Of a stretch of DNA of 64,000 bases, positions 1,432-17,114 are shown one piece after another. The notes under the pieces were generated by a model that was not told the DNA's origin, ran no database searches, and was given only the letters and a program-made list of their open reading frames with translations. A program made the position numbers and the translations under genes. Numbering within the stretch: position 1 is the stretch's first letter; each line of letters begins with the position of its first letter. The stretch is taken from assembly GCF_007625155.1 (NCBI RefSeq), contig NZ_VMNK01000003.1:1-64000 (forward strand). Reading direction: 5' to 3'. The stretch comes from Denitromonas halophila (GTDB lineage Bacteria > Pseudomonadota > Gammaproteobacteria > Burkholderiales > Rhodocyclaceae).

Positions 1432-4400
1432 ATGGCCGAAAGCACGCTCGTCACCGCCCCGCCACGCGACGTCACCCTCGACGACAAGTACACCCTGCAC
1501 AGCGGGCGCGTCTATCTCACCGGCTATCAGGCCTTGGTGCGACTGCTGATGATCCAGCAAGAGCGCGACCACGCCGCCGGGCTCAACACCGCTGGCTTTG
1601 TGTCGGGTTACCGCGGCTCGCCGCTGGGCGGACTCGATCAGACGCTGTGGAAGGCGCGCCCCCACCTGAAGCAGCGCAATATCGTGTTTCAGCCCGGCAT
1701 CAATGAAGACCTCGCCGCCACGGCGGTATGGGGTTCTCAGCAGGTCAACCTCTCGCCCGACGCGGAATACGACGGCGTGTTCGCCCTGTGGTACGGCAAG
1801 GGGCCGGGCGTCGACCGCAGTGGCGACGTGTTCCGCCATGGCAACGCGGCGGGCAGCTCGAAGTTTGGCGGCGTGGTGGTGGTGGCGGGCGATGACCATG
1901 CGGCCAAGTCATCCACCTTCCCGCATCAGACCGATCATTTTTTCAAGTCGATGATGATGCCGGTGCTCGCACCGGCCGGTGTGCAGGAGTACATCGACTT
2001 CGGCGTGCATGGCTACGCGCTATCACGCTACTCGGGGTGCTGGGTGGCATTCAAGGCGCTGGCCGATACGGTGGAGACCTCGGCCTCGGTGGACGTCGAC
2101 CCGAACCGCGTCGAAGTGGTCATCCCGGACGATTTCGCCATCCCGCGCGACGGCCTCAACATCCGCTGGCCGGACCCGCCGCTGGTGCAGGAAAAGCGCC
2201 TGCTCAACTACAAGCTGTATGCCGCGCTGGCCTACTGCCGCGCCAACGGGCTCAACCAGGTCATCATCGACTCGCCCGCGCCCAAGCTCGGCATCATCAC
2301 CTCGGGCAAGAGCTACCTGGACGTGCGTCAGGCCTTCGACGACTTGGGCATTGACGATGCGCTGGCCGCCGAAATCGGCATCCGGCTCTATAAAGTCGGC
2401 ATGGTCTGGCCGCTCGAATCGGTTGGCGTGCGCGACTTTGCCGAAGGGCTGGAAGAGATTCTGGTGGTCGAAGAAAAACGCCAGCTGCTCGAATACCAGC
2501 TCAAGGAAGAACTCTACAACTGGCGCGAAGACGTCCGTCCGCGCGTGGTCGGCAAGTTCGACGAAAAGGGCGAGTGGGCGCTGCTGCCCAAGGGCGACGG
2601 CAAGGTCGACCACGGCAAATGGCTGCTGCCCGCCGCCGGCGAGCTCACTCCGGCGATGATCGCCCGAGTCATCGCCGGTCGCATCGCCCGCTTCTTCACC
2701 TCCGACCGCATCCAGGCGCGCCTGGCCTTTCTCGAAGCCAAGGAGGCGGCGCTCGACCAACGCGTATTCTCCATCGACCGCGTGCCCACCTTCTGCTCCG
2801 GCTGCCCGCACAACACCTCCACCCATGTACCCGAAGGCAGCCGGGCGCTGGCCGGCATCGGCTGCCACTACATGGTCACCTGGATGCCCGAGCGGCGCAC
2901 CGGCACCTTCACCCAAATGGGTGGCGAAGGCGTGCCCTGGGTCGGCCAGTCGCCTTTCACGCGCGAAAAACACGTATTCGCCAACCTCGGCGACGGCACC
3001 TACTTCCACTCCGGCCTGCTGGCGATCCGGCAGGCGGTGTCAGCCGGCGTCAACATCACCTACAAGATCCTTTACAACGACGCCGTCGCCATGACCGGCG
3101 GCCAGCCGCACGACGGCCATCTGTCGGTGCCGATCATCGTGCAGCAACTGCAGGCCGAAGGCGTGCACAACATCGTGATCGTCACCGACGGCACCGATCG
3201 CGCCTATGGCCCGTCCGACATCCCGCATATCCCGGTGCGTCATCGCGACGAGCTCGACGCGGTCCAGCGCGAACTGCGCGCCTCGGGCGGCGTCACCGCG
3301 CTGATCTACGACCAGACCTGCGCCGCCGAAAAACGCCGCCGCCGCAAGCGCGGGCTCTACCCCGACCCGGCGCGACGGGTGTTCATCAACGAGGCGGTGT
3401 GCGAAGGCTGCGGCGACTGCGGCGTGGCCAGCAACTGCATGTCCATCCTGCCCGTCGAAACCGAATTTGGCCGCAAGCGCCAGATCGACCAGTCCTCCTG
3501 CAACAAGGACTATTCCTGCCTCAACGGCTTCTGCCCCAGCTTTGTCACTATAGAAGGTGGCGCGCCGCGCAAGGGCCGGGCGATCGCCGACGCGGGCGAG
3601 CGCTTTCCCGCGCTGCCCGAGCCGGACCTGCCGGACACCCGCAAGCCCTTCGGCATCATGGTCACCGGCGTCGGCGGCACCGGCGTGGTCACCATCGGCG
3701 CGCTGATCGGCATGGGTGCCCACCTCGACGGCAAGGGCGTCACGGTGCTCGACATGACCGGTCTGGCGCAAAAAGGCGGCTCGGTGTTCAGCCACATCCG
3801 CGTCGCCAACCAGCCCGAATCCCTGCACGCCGTGCGTATCGCCGCTGGCGAAGCCGATGCGGTAATCGGCGGTGACGTGGTGGTCTCGGCCAGTGTCGAA
3901 GCCCTGGCCAAGATGGCGGCCGGACGCACCCGCGCAGTCATCAACTGCGCCGAAACGCCCACCTCGGATTTCACCAAAAACCCGGACTGGCAGTTCCCGC
4001 TCGACAAAATGGAACGCACCGTGCGCGACGCCGTCGGGGCCGAGAACGCCGACTTCCTCGACGCGCAGGGCCTCGCCACCACATTGATGGGCGACGCCAT
4101 CGCCACCAACCTCTTCCTGCTCGGCTACGCCTGGCAAAAAGGCATGGTGCCGGTCAGCCACGCGGGCCTGATGAAAGCCATCGAGCTCAACGGCACCGCC
4201 GTCCCCATGAACAAACAGGCCTTTGTGTGGGGCCGCCGCGCGGCCTGCGACGTGGATGCAGTCAGTCGCATCGCCCGCCCGCCGCGCGCCGTGCCGCTGC
4301 ACCCCCCGGGGCTGGACGAGATCGTTGCGCGCCGGATGCGCACACTCACCGACTATCAGGACGCCGCCTATGCCCGCCGCTACCAGCACCTGGTCGAGCG

Positions 4401-14249: not shown

Positions 14250-14279
14250 TGCATCCAGTGACCTAGCGGGTCCGTACAG
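14250..14279 (+). promoter_or_regulatory. ECF sigma promoter of the ferritin-like gene
   Basis: TGCATCCA (14250-14257), 14 nt, then CCGTACAG (14272-14279), ending 48 nt before the ATG. The same two boxes with the same spacer occur upstream of the P460 lipoprotein gene and of the ECF sigma gene at 17047, which suggests this sigma factor reads all three. Confidence 0.75.
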
Positions 14280-14327
14280 GAGACAAGGGCGGCCATCGTC
14301 GCCCCCTTGCCAACAACGGAGATCACC

Positions 14328-14915
14328 ATGAACAAGAAAGAGATCGATCTGTCCCTGACCCGCGTCGAACGTCGTCTGTTTCTGAAGAACAGCAGCCTCT
14401 TCGCCCTCGGCGCCACCGCCGCCATTGGCCTGGCCGCCCCCGGACGCGCGCTGGCCGGCAAGATGAAGATGAGCGAGACCGACGACCTGGCCATTCTCAA
14501 CGTCGCCCTCGGCCTGGAGTATCAGGCAATCGCGGCCTATCAGGTCGGCGCCGAGTCGGGCCTGCTGCAAAAGCCGGTCCTCGATGTGGCGGTGAAATTT
14601 CAGGGCCACCACAAGGCGCATGCCGATGTGCTTGCCGGCACCATCGAGAAACTCGGCGGCAAGCCGGTGATGGCGATGCGCGCGGAAAACTACCAGTTCC
14701 CGGTTACCCAACTCAAAGAGCAGGCCGACGTCCTGCGCTTTGCTGCCGGGCTGGAAAAAGGGGCCGCCAGCGCCTACCTGGGTGCGGTGCCGCAGTTCTC
14801 GAACCGCGAACTGGCCCGCGCGGCGGCCAGCATTCTGGGCGACGAAACCATGCACTGGGCGATCCTGCTCAACGCCTTGGGCGAAGACCCGGTGCCGGCC
14901 GCCTTCATCGCCTGA
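14328..14915 (+). CDS. Tat-exported ferritin-like domain protein
   Basis: A 195-residue protein with a twin-arginine-type leader (VERRLFLKNSSLFALGATAAIGLAAP) and a four-helix ferritin-like bundle (DDLAILNVALGLEYQAIAAYQ; FQGHHKAHADVLAGTIEKLGG; GLEKGAASAYLGAVP; SILGDETMHWAILLNALG). The glutamates and histidines in helices 1, 2 and 4 match possible di-metal ligands. The start at 14328 has a GGAG site; a frame extension begins at 14307. It faces the P460 lipoprotein gene and shares its promoter motif, so both are probably ECF targets. The substrate is unknown; a periplasmic redox or metal stress role is inferred. Confidence 0.82.
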   Translation: MNKKEIDLSLTRVERRLFLKNSSLFALGATAAIGLAAPGRALAGKMKMSETDDLAILNVALGLEYQAIAAYQVGAESGLLQKPVLDVAVKFQGHHKAHADVLAGTIEKLGGKPVMAMRAENYQFPVTQLKEQADVLRFAAGLEKGAASAYLGAVPQFSNRELARAAASILGDETMHWAILLNALGEDPVPAAFIA

Positions 14916-14956
14916 TCCGACGCCCGGTCCCGCAAGGGCCTGGGCTTGATCAGAGC

Positions 14957-14993
14957 ACGGGGATCGCGCCAGTTCGGCGCGATCCCCGTTTTA
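14957..14993 (+). terminator. Intrinsic terminator of the ferritin-like gene
   Basis: A perfect 14-bp stem (ACGGGGATCGCGCC / GGCGCGATCCCCGT) with a 5-nt loop is followed by TTTATT. Confidence 0.9.
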
Positions 14994-15040
14994 TTGGCCG
15001 GCATCTGTGCAAAACAATGCCGGCCCGTGGTGTTGGCTGC

Positions 15041-15066
15041 CTGCCCGGGCTGCGAGCCCCGGGCAG
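15041..15066 (-). terminator. Hairpin downstream of the P460 lipoprotein gene
   Basis: CTGCCCGGG and CCCGGGCAG form a strong GC stem just past the P460 stop codon. There is no T-tract, so it may be a 3' stabilising or weak termination structure. Confidence 0.45.
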
Positions 15067-15071
15067 ATGCG

Positions 15072-15644
15072 TCAGCGCATGCGCGCCATGAAGTGCTCGT
15101 CGTAGCGCGCCACGAAGTCGGTGTTTGCCATCGGTAGATGGCAACTGCGGCAGCCACTGAAATCAGAAGTCGCGGCGGTCTTGCCGTCGGCCTGCCAGGC
15201 GCCATACACCCAGTCGCCGTTGCCCACGGTACCGGCGGGCAGGCTCGCGCCCCAGCCCTCGCCCTTGGCCATGACGAAGATCTTTGACAACTCGCCTTTG
15301 ATCAATCGCCCCTCCGGGGTCATAAGGAGCTTGCCAGCCGCATCCTTGCGCGCGGCGTAGAGTTCCATCACCGAGACCGTCCCTGCCGCAAAGGCCTCGC
15401 CCTTCTGTGCCCTCAGCCCGACCGGGTTGATATAGATCTCGCGCACCTGCGCCCCGCCGACCTTGTCGACGGTCGGCACGAAGCTCGGCCATGCGCGATA
15501 CGTGGCTGGCACGCCGATGTCGCCATCGGCAGGCGCCTTGACCATGGGCTCGGCGCCACGATGACTGGCACAGCCAGCGCCGATCACGGTGGCGCCGATC
15601 ACGGCCAGGCTGAGGGCCGTCAAGTGGAATCGTTTCGTATTCAT
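15072..15644 (-). CDS. Cytochrome P460 family lipoprotein
   Basis: The 190-residue protein begins with a lipoprotein signal (lipobox around C25, VIGAGC) and carries the P460 fold with the c-type heme motif CRSCH at residues 165-169 near the C-terminus. P460 proteins bind a lysine-crosslinked heme c and act on hydroxylamine or NO; here the protein would sit on a periplasmic membrane face. The start at 15644 has GGGAG 7 nt upstream. It lies directly downstream of the ECF motif at 15693-15722 and is transcribed towards the ferritin-like gene. Confidence 0.87.
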   Translation of the reverse strand: MNTKRFHLTALSLAVIGATVIGAGCASHRGAEPMVKAPADGDIGVPATYRAWPSFVPTVDKVGGAQVREIYINPVGLRAQKGEAFAAGTVSVMELYAARKDAAGKLLMTPEGRLIKGELSKIFVMAKGEGWGASLPAGTVGNGDWVYGAWQADGKTAATSDFSGCRSCHLPMANTDFVARYDEHFMARMR

Positions 15645-15671
15645 GAGCGTACTCCCGTCAGTGCTGTGGAT

Positions 15672-15687
15672 GTATCCGGGGGGATAC
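15672..15687. promoter_or_regulatory. Palindrome at the P460 transcription start
   Basis: GTATCC-GGGG-GGATAC is a perfect inverted repeat located just downstream of the predicted ECF -10 box, so it overlaps the expected transcription start. It could be an operator or a 5'-UTR hairpin. Confidence 0.45.
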
Positions 15688-15692
15688 CTCAC

Positions 15693-15722
15693 TTGTACGG
15701 GCCAAGCCCCGCGGTGGATGCA
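15693..15722 (-). promoter_or_regulatory. ECF sigma promoter of the P460 lipoprotein gene
   Basis: The minus strand reads TGCATCCA (15722-15715), 14 nt, then CCGTACAA (15700-15693). There are 48 nt to the ATG, exactly the distance seen in front of the ferritin-like gene. Confidence 0.75.
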
Positions 15723-15785
15723 CCCAGGCGGTGTCAACGCAAAGACGCCCGCCAAAGCGAGCGCCCCTGGCCAGAATGAAACGGC

Positions 15786-16478
15786 TTATACCGCGTCGAT
15801 GGCACCGACCAGAATCACCGGGCCGGTCGGCGCCCCGGTAGGCGAACCACCCGCCGGTTCGACCGACACCGCCAGCCTGGCCCCGGCGTGCAAGCGCCCG
15901 ACCAGCGGCGCCGGCACCGGCACTTGCGCGCTCAGCTGGCCAAGCACCGCGACCGACACCGGTGCGCTACCGTCGGGCGGCAGCAGCCACAGCTCGTAGC
16001 TTTGAGTGCTGGCCGCGAGCACTGGCCGCGACGGCGCCAATTGCAGCCAGCGCCCATCGTCCGACAAGGACGCCACCACTGGCGCCGCCCCCTCGCCGCT
16101 GGCCAGCGTGGCGATCGGGTGCATGATCGGCGCCACCGGCGCACGCTCAACCAGGCTGGCACCCAGCCAGACCGTGAGCGCCGCCGTGGCGGTCAGCGCC
16201 CAGCCGCGCCACAGCCCCACCCGGGCGAACCACGGCTGCCGATAGCGGCGAAGATCGAGATCGTGCGCGATGCGCTGCCAGGTTCGCGGTGCCGGTTGCA
16301 TACGGAAAGCCTCGCTGGGCTGAGGGGTAAACACCTGCTGCCAATGCTGAAGACGCAGGGCGACACGTGGCTCTTCAGCGCACGCGCGTTCGAAGCGCGC
16401 CCGCGCGGCGCCACGCAGCGTGCCCAGCAGGTATTCGCCACACAGCGCGTCGAGAAGCGGGGATTGGTCGAGCTTCAT
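15786..16478 (-). CDS. Anti-sigma factor (RskA-like, membrane)
   Basis: The 230-residue protein has an N-terminal cytoplasmic anti-sigma domain (LLDALCGEYLLGTLRGAARARFERACAEEP), a single membrane helix (WALTATAALTVWLGASLV) and a periplasmic RskA-type C-terminal domain (YELWLLPPDGSAPVSVAVL; AVSVEPAGGSPTGAPTGPVILVGAI). It would hold the sigma factor at the membrane until a periplasmic signal triggers release. Its ATG overlaps the sigma stop (16475-16478), so the two are translationally coupled. Confidence 0.88.
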   Translation of the reverse strand: MKLDQSPLLDALCGEYLLGTLRGAARARFERACAEEPRVALRLQHWQQVFTPQPSEAFRMQPAPRTWQRIAHDLDLRRYRQPWFARVGLWRGWALTATAALTVWLGASLVERAPVAPIMHPIATLASGEGAAPVVASLSDDGRWLQLAPSRPVLAASTQSYELWLLPPDGSAPVSVAVLGQLSAQVPVPAPLVGRLHAGARLAVSVEPAGGSPTGAPTGPVILVGAIDAV

Positions 16479-17047
16479 GACACCCCCATGCAGCTATCGA
16501 CGCACTGCTTGAGGCTCTGCATGCCACGTCGAACCCAGGATTTGACGGTACCCAGCGGCTTGGCCAGCTGATTGGACAGTTCGCCATGACTGAGGCCATG
16601 CATGTAGGCCAGCACCAGCGCCTGCCGCTCGCCGCCCTTGAGCTCATCGAGGCAGCCGCGCAGCCAGTGACGCATGCGGGCGCTGTCGGCTTCGTCCTCG
16701 GACGCGTCGGACCAGTCGAAATAGCGATCCAGGCTGTCTTCGTCCTCATCGACGGAGATAACCCGCGCCACATCGGCCCGACTTACGGTGTCGATGGCAC
16801 GATTGCGCACGATGGTCGCCATCCAGGCCACCGGCCGGGTCGCCGTCGGATCGAAGCGTGCCGCCGCATGCCAGATCTTGATGAAAGCGTCGTGCAGCAC
16901 CTCTTCGGCCAGCTCGCGCCGGCCGGTGACCTTGAAGGCCACGCCCAGCAAGACCGGCGCTGTCAGGCGATAGAGCTGTTCAAAGGCCTCGGCGTCGCGC
17001 GCGGCGCTAAGAAGAATCAATCGTCGGATGTGGATATCGTCGAGCAT
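16475..17047 (-). CDS. ECF RNA polymerase sigma factor (SigK-like)
   Basis: The 190-residue sigma factor has region 2 (AFEQLYRLTAPVLLGVAFKVTGRRELAEEVLHDAFIKIWHAA, then PVAWMATIVRNRAIDTVSR) and region 4 (GERQALVLAYMHGLSHGELSNQLAKPLGTVKSWVRRGMQSLKQCV). It is coupled to the RskA-type anti-sigma gene. The motif TGCATCCA-N14-TCGTACAG upstream of it matches those before the P460 and ferritin-like genes, which supports autoregulation. The inducing signal is unknown; the targets hint at reactive nitrogen, oxygen or metal stress. Confidence 0.92.
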   Translation of the reverse strand: MLDDIHIRRLILLSAARDAEAFEQLYRLTAPVLLGVAFKVTGRRELAEEVLHDAFIKIWHAAARFDPTATRPVAWMATIVRNRAIDTVSRADVARVISVDEDEDSLDRYFDWSDASEDEADSARMRHWLRGCLDELKGGERQALVLAYMHGLSHGELSNQLAKPLGTVKSWVRRGMQSLKQCVDSCMGVS

Positions 17048-17084
17048 GGCTCCCCTCTCGGCGCAAAAGAGGCGCCCTTGCTCC

Positions 17085-17114
17085 CTGTACGACTATGGCC
17101 TCGCGCTGGATGCA
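17085..17114 (-). promoter_or_regulatory. ECF promoter of the sigma/anti-sigma operon
   Basis: The minus strand reads TGCATCCA (17114-17107), 14 nt, then TCGTACAG (17092-17085), 37 nt before the sigma ATG. It overlaps the last codons of the upstream racemase gene. Confidence 0.72.

Follow-up and report, generated by a model that had tools for sequence, protein, structure and literature searches.

A probable autoregulated SigK/RskA-type regulon with an exported ferritin-like protein and a P460-fold cytochrome in Denitromonas halophila

Which genes does the SigK-type sigma factor of Denitromonas halophila described here control, and what might the regulon be for? The sigma gene lies in the first 64,000 nucleotides of contig NZ_VMNK01000003.1 (assembly GCF_007625155.1, forward strand), which we refer to as the window. 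This extracytoplasmic function (ECF) sigma factor is encoded next to an anti-sigma factor, and close by are genes for a P460-fold cytochrome and for a ferritin-like protein with a signal of the twin-arginine translocation (Tat) type. An earlier note, made from the sequence alone, had proposed that three copies of one ECF promoter join these genes in a small regulon. Judging from the sequence, we think it likely that the SigK/RskA-type pair forms an autoregulated regulon, comprising its own operon, the ferritin-like protein and, in some but not all of the genus, the P460-fold cytochrome. The role of this regulon is probably in periplasmic redox stress.

The pattern TGCATCCA-N14-YCGTACAR matches the window three times, and 100 dinucleotide-preserving shuffles gave no match. 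Positions and strands are those that had been claimed (Table 1), and each box is upstream of a different unit: the ferritin-like gene, the P460-fold gene and the sigma/anti-sigma pair. The distance from box to ATG had been put at 48 nucleotides for the first two units and measures 48 nucleotides for the ferritin-like gene and 48 for the P460-fold gene; for the sigma unit it is 37. A spacing of 48 is not general, as the gaps before ferritin-like genes in relatives include 30, 46, 47, 48 and 49 nucleotides. The sigma box shares 22 nucleotides with the 3' end of the upstream coenzyme A-transferase frame, so that coding and promoter constraints overlap there. Elsewhere in the genome (4,393,467 bases, 4.39 Mb), the relaxed pattern TGCATCCA-N13..15-CGTA has no match beyond the three window boxes. 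With up to two mismatches allowed, TGCATCCA-N15-CGTACA occurs at 21 places in the whole genome, against 8 for a reversed control; seventeen of these have two mismatches, and the sole place with one lies inside a 471-residue frame, on the opposite strand (L007).

A lack of the boxes before orthologous genes would have counted against the earlier note; they are kept there, but among the more distant orthologues only in part. In promoter alignments (six ferritin, four P460 and six sigma promoters), the two blocks are conserved and the spacers drift; the exceptions are one mismatch in the ferritin box of locus L167 and one base changed behind CGTA in its sigma box. Three loci (L069, L070 and L072, the last from D. 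ohlonensis SFB-1) retain the full set of three boxes and four genes. D. iodatirespirans (L071) keeps the sigma and ferritin boxes and lacks the P460 gene at the locus, and its genome has no P460 homologue at an expectation value (E) of 1e-5. Another genome of the same genus (G280, locus L167) has a complete sigma box, a one-mismatch ferritin box and no P460 gene at the locus. The P460-fold gene does have a box before it, as the earlier note had it, but its membership is not fixed, and it is an accessory member of the regulon.

Upstream of SigK-like sigma genes, the complete box was found in 14 of 41 distinct regions, whereas 0.01 would be expected from shuffles. Scores of at least 10.5 of 11.5, that is, complete or one base short, were reached by 19 of the 41 (0.16 expected), and scores of at least 9.5 by 26 (2.16 expected). 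Alcanivorax hongdengensis (L091) also carries the box. A wider search of 25 genomes for TGMATCCR-N14-YCGTA gave 42 places in 20 of them, 31 of these being TGCATCCR; over ten wrong spacings this last form occurred at 69 places, or 6.9 per spacing. The reversed TGCATCCR-form pattern gave 104 places over those ten wrong spacings (10.4 each). Another reversed control, alongside the TGMATCCR count, gave 0, which disagrees with the 104 for reasons that are unexplained and is not relied on.

The same boxes recur when genes are chosen independently of sigma. Our survey covered 399 genomes of the order, in which the ferritin-like family is present in 32 genomes and the P460 family in 29. In sets of 30 genes each, both including the window's own, boxes scoring at least 10.5 were found upstream of nine ferritin-like genes (0.10 expected) and five P460-family genes (0.11 expected). 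This recurrence, together with the conservation of the boxes, supports the proposal that a single ECF-type promoter joins three units in a regulon, with autoregulation probable.

Table 1. Features of the locus, in window coordinates
Feature	Position	Strand	Basis
ECF-type promoter box TGCATCCA-N14-CCGTACAG of the ferritin-like gene	14250..14279	+	Pattern scan; six Denitromonas-group loci aligned
Ferritin-like protein with Tat signal (PF13668 Ferritin_2), 195 residues, putative site E64/H95/H98/E143/E173/H176	14328..14915	+	Pfam, model, alignment; Tat by eye
Terminator-like hairpin where the convergent ferritin-like and P460 genes meet	14957..14989	+	
P460-fold c-type cytochrome (cytochrome c'-beta, Met type), lipoprotein-like signal, 190 residues	15072..15644	-	Pfam, alignments; lipobox by eye
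ECF-type promoter box of the P460-fold gene	15693..15722	-	Pattern scan, alignment
RskA-type anti-sigma (PF10099), single hydrophobic segment at residues 92-110, 230 residues	15786..16478	-	Pfam, hydrophobicity
ECF sigma factor, SigK type, Cys132/Cys182 pair, 190 residues	16475..17047	-	Pfam, solved relatives, cysteine alignment
ECF-type promoter box of the sigma/anti-sigma operon	17085..17114	-	Pattern scan, upstream-region scores, alignment

The sigma factor has sigma-70 regions 2 and 4 only (PF04542 and PF08281, both above the curated Pfam cut-offs), and its best solved relative is SigK of Mycobacterium tuberculosis (4nqw, E=1.9e-18). It scores 122.3 bits against the NCBIfam model for SigK (PRK09646), under the curated cut-off of 226. 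Both cysteines of the SigK pair (Cys133 and Cys183 in SigK) are present in 40 of 41 sequences, the window's included. The adjoining gene encodes an anti-sigma factor with an RskA_C domain (59.1 bits against a cut-off of 29.4) that reaches 72.4 bits against the NCBIfam anti-sigma equivalog, under the cut-off of 100. Compared with solved structures, the anti-sigma profile had a single, weak match, to an antibody chain (E=0.38). Its closest named relatives are from Zoogloeaceae bacterium G21618-S1 (95%), Denitromonas ohlonensis SFB-1 (95%), Proteobacteria MAG PRO3 (87%) and D. iodatirespirans (81%). The only cysteines in the anti-sigma factor, at positions 13 and 33, precede the membrane segment, which leaves the outer domain no thiol with which to sense. 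Stepwise cleavage would therefore be the likelier switch, by analogy with M. tuberculosis, where RskA is cleaved by the membrane protease Rip1 (PMC7509140).

The ferritin-like protein matches Ferritin_2 at 116.6 bits (cut-off 24.7), and its predicted structure has four long helices, at residues 50-76, 84-108, 132-156 and 160-183, with a mean predicted local distance difference test score (pLDDT) of 73.6. We take its N-terminal ERRLFLK, recognized by eye, to be a Tat signal. The canonical ferritin-like di-metal site has ExxH on helices 2 and 4. All 38 sequences compared have the six candidate ligands found here (E64, H95, H98, E143, E173 and H176), with H95xxH98 on helix 2 and E173xxH176 on helix 4. 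The ferritin-like family and the Tat-type signal are as the earlier note had them, but for the di-metal-type protein that it proposed the site is unusual: HxxH replaces the usual ExxH on helix 2. The best sequence match, also among the best fold matches, is the tardigrade metabolite phosphatase RvFeMP-1 (8kce), which shares the ferritin-like domain. Its ligands are Glu51, Glu90, His93, Glu132, Asp135 and Asp162, and Asp135 is needed for activity (PMC11616004). Unlike RvFeMP-1, the window protein has His in place of Glu90 on helix 2, Ala146 in place of the catalytic Asp135 and no IgG-like domain. Identity as a metabolite phosphatase was rejected, since Ala146 stands at the Asp135 place in 38 of 38 sequences. 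We expect the metal site to have a chemistry other than that of RvFeMP-1. A literature search found no study of the HxxH subfamily.

The cytochrome matches the Pfam family Cytochrome_P460 above its curated cut-off, and GAGC before the mature part is, we presume by eye, a lipobox. Its nearest solved structure is the cytochrome c'beta-Met of Nitrosomonas europaea (7s5o, profile E=1e-35, the next being 3.9e-13). 7s5o is also first by fold, but with a low-confidence model of the window protein (mean pLDDT 62.3), so the assignment rests on sequence alignment. At the heme cross-link place the window protein has Met93. Among 35 aligned homologues, all with CXXCH, this place is Met in 23, Leu in 7, Ala in 2, Val in 1, a gap in 2 and Lys in none. 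By alignment, Lys61 is at the cap place and Phe123 at the carboxylate place. With the residues that separate P460 from c'-beta (PMC11928373, Table 2), the P460 fold, CXXCH and Met93 identify a Met-type cytochrome c'-beta, and the label "heme P460" used in the earlier note does not hold, as Met stands where P460 has its heme-linking Lys. A hydroxylamine-oxidizing cytochrome P460 was rejected, because both this Lys and the distal carboxylate are absent. The protein shares the fold, CXXCH and Met with 7s5o and differs from it in having Lys61 for the cap Arg and Phe123 for Ala, a lipoprotein-like signal and an ECF box upstream. Cytochrome c'beta-Met does not oxidize hydroxylamine; with H2O2 it gives a ferryl species, and it acts as a guaiacol peroxidase (PMC11928373).

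How might such a regulon work? We postulate that the RskA-type anti-sigma holds the sigma factor at the membrane until a signal in the cell envelope frees it, most likely through stepwise cleavage of the anti-sigma. We infer that the freed sigma factor would read promoters of the form ATCC-N16-CGTA: its own, giving positive feedback, and those of the ferritin-like protein and the P460-fold cytochrome. The exported metal proteins could then remove reactive species from the periplasm or buffer them. Our first candidate for these species is hydrogen peroxide, with a chance that we put a little below even. We favor it because the nearest solved cytochrome is peroxide-reactive and because an exported peroxidase in Shewanella is driven by an ECF sigma factor from a near-identical promoter (PMC4336711).

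Several observations weigh against this model. In fifteen of the 41 regions upstream of sigma genes no box reaches 9.5, and the sigma counts are not independent, since five of the 14 complete boxes are those of the window and four close relatives. In the sigma-independent sets, no box scoring at least 10.5 precedes 21 of the 30 ferritin-like and 25 of the 30 P460-family genes, and scores of at most 7.5 are all that is reached by eight P460-family genes from a single genus (f16/g20), one that we take to be Nitrosomonas-like from the motif of these genes alone. In M. tuberculosis, the oxidized cysteine pair stabilizes the inhibited SigK-RskA complex and reduction frees SigK (PMC7509140), a direction hard to square with an oxidant as the direct trigger. 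On the other side, RpoE and ChrR of Rhodobacter capsulatus, a photooxidative-stress system, are nearer to SigK and RskA than to their R. sphaeroides namesakes (PMC7074977), and this likeness may be a lead for an oxidative role. Finally, an ECF sigma frame of another kind, weakly similar to SigK (18-38 bits), stands directly before 11 of the 30 ferritin-like genes, which have no box (L202, L204, L206, L207, L209, L212, L213, L214, L216, L217 and L218; for example, L204:806-2055 and L212:1091-3359), and in 7 of these 11 loci a cytochrome c follows. The ferritin-like protein is thus tied to more than one kind of ECF sigma gene. One might imagine that HxxH ferritin-like proteins and c'beta-Met cytochromes make up one periplasmic redox device, in which the ferritin-like protein reports redox or metal state to the anti-sigma. 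SigK/RskA systems would then have a metal-centre sensor, though we regard this as quite improbable.

The main rival to peroxide, and our second candidate, is nitric oxide (NO): the regulon might instead answer NO or other reactive nitrogen species arising from denitrification, with the cytochrome and the exported globin of relatives binding NO. The closest named relatives are Denitromonas, a genus with denitrifying physiology, and Bac_globin genes with signal-like N-termini (by eye) occur in the relatives' clusters. Roles in nitrosative defence and NO trafficking have been proposed for cytochromes c'-beta (PMC11928373). However, the cytochrome gene is missing at two sister loci that have sigma and ferritin boxes, and the nearest solved cytochrome reacts with peroxide. 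The more constant target is the ferritin-like protein, for which we know of no NO chemistry, and on balance we find an NO response rather unlikely. A purpose in periplasmic metal or heme handling, as opposed to detoxification, is suggested by the families of the targets: metal- or heme-binding families account for both exported proteins of the window and for several of those in relatives. Yet no recurring uptake, efflux or chaperone family was seen among the box-bearing genes, which include one TonB-receptor-like frame (L130, by eye), and we consider this purpose improbable.

A different kind of doubt concerns what reads the boxes. Another ECF sigma factor could do so, for example one of the RpoE/ChrR (singlet oxygen) type, which shares the ATCC-N16-CGTA core: the promoters of PSPTO_1043 and Shewanella RpoE2 are TGATCC-N16-CGTA (PMC5507510, PMC4336711), an ECF sigma factor and a ChrR-like cupin occur in the L049 cluster, and cupin matches lie near ferritin-like genes of G208 and G217. 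But the base before ATCC is C at all three window boxes, in place of the G of the TGATCC form, and it is C or A, never G, in all 19 sigma-upstream boxes scoring at least 10.5, in a scan built on TGCATCC and so leaning toward a base other than G. Genome G201 has all three boxes and no ChrR cupin above the cut-off. The window's genome has a cupin at C16:49117 and a cupin pair at C31:466371-466991; in a check of 10 kb at the first of these, no SigK-like sigma was seen. A box also stands before the window's sigma gene itself, and we think control by another sigma factor very unlikely. It is also true that conservation by itself cannot tell a promoter from the binding site of a repressor or activator of sigma and its neighbors. 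The spacing between the two parts is fixed (31 places at N14 against 6.9 per wrong spacing), the boxes lie 37-48 nucleotides before the starts, and they resemble an ECF promoter with a mapped start (PMC4336711); a regulator site in place of a promoter is thus scarcely credible to us.

The proposed SigK/RskA regulon has the layout of a known kind of system, and its pair of targets looks unreported. As in SigK-RskA of M. tuberculosis (ECF18/19), adjacent genes encode the sigma factor and an RskA_C anti-sigma, the best solved relative is 4nqw and the cysteine pair is in the same places; the targets differ, being exported ferritin-like and P460-fold proteins here and mpt70/mpt83 there (PMC7509140). 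RpoE2-ChrR of Shewanella oneidensis and PSPTO_1043 of Pseudomonas syringae are likewise autoregulated ECF systems with an ATCC-N16-CGTA core, and RpoE2 has an exported peroxidase among its targets, whereas both have a ChrR-type anti-sigma and G before ATCC (PMC4336711, PMC5507510). In the portions of the papers available, a literature search for the gene combination recognized no description of this regulon or target pair. A 2025 review calls the physiological role of any cytochrome c' undetermined (PMC11928373), and what activates SigK/RskA in M. tuberculosis is called unknown as well (PMC7509140). A small regulon in a free-living denitrifier could make both testable through what induces the three promoters. 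It would also link the HxxH ferritin-like subfamily to the same response and provide a handle on two protein families of no known role.

Clusters in relatives contain further partner genes. Those of L051 and L079 comprise sigma, anti-sigma, ferritin-like, cytochrome c (mono-heme), DUF3034 and globin genes; the globins in relatives' sigma clusters are Bac_globins with a signal-like N-terminus (by eye). The DUF3034 unit follows a box in L076, L077 and L086, as does the ferritin-like gene in L074 and L086. In genome G092 (L177), genes for an anti-sigma, a globin and a P460-fold protein with Met stand in a row, with a SigK-like sigma just upstream (G092:C2:381238-381756). A second ECF sigma and a ChrR-like cupin anti-sigma lie beside the SigK/ferritin cluster at L049:12562-14021.

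Strict boxes in the family members G248 and G239 (L159, L160) were set aside, as they lie inside long reading frames and look like chance. By the wrong-spacing control, about seven chance places of the TGCATCCR form are expected per 25 genomes, and for this reason isolated matches outside Denitromonas (catalase-like L113, DUF1223 L117, CMAS L132, TPR L128 and others) and L121 are not claimed. The match in L113, in a single genome, precedes by ~105 nucleotides a catalase-domain protein with a signal-like N-terminus (L113:1628-2224) and may be chance, as may the box at 3475 in D. iodatirespirans, before a 373-residue protein with no Pfam match (L121:2257-3378, minus strand). DUF3455 genes lie behind a box in three genomes (L122, L125, L131), and DUF4331 genes do so in two (L127 and L108), the one in L108 being assigned by its likeness to L127 and the others by Pfam.

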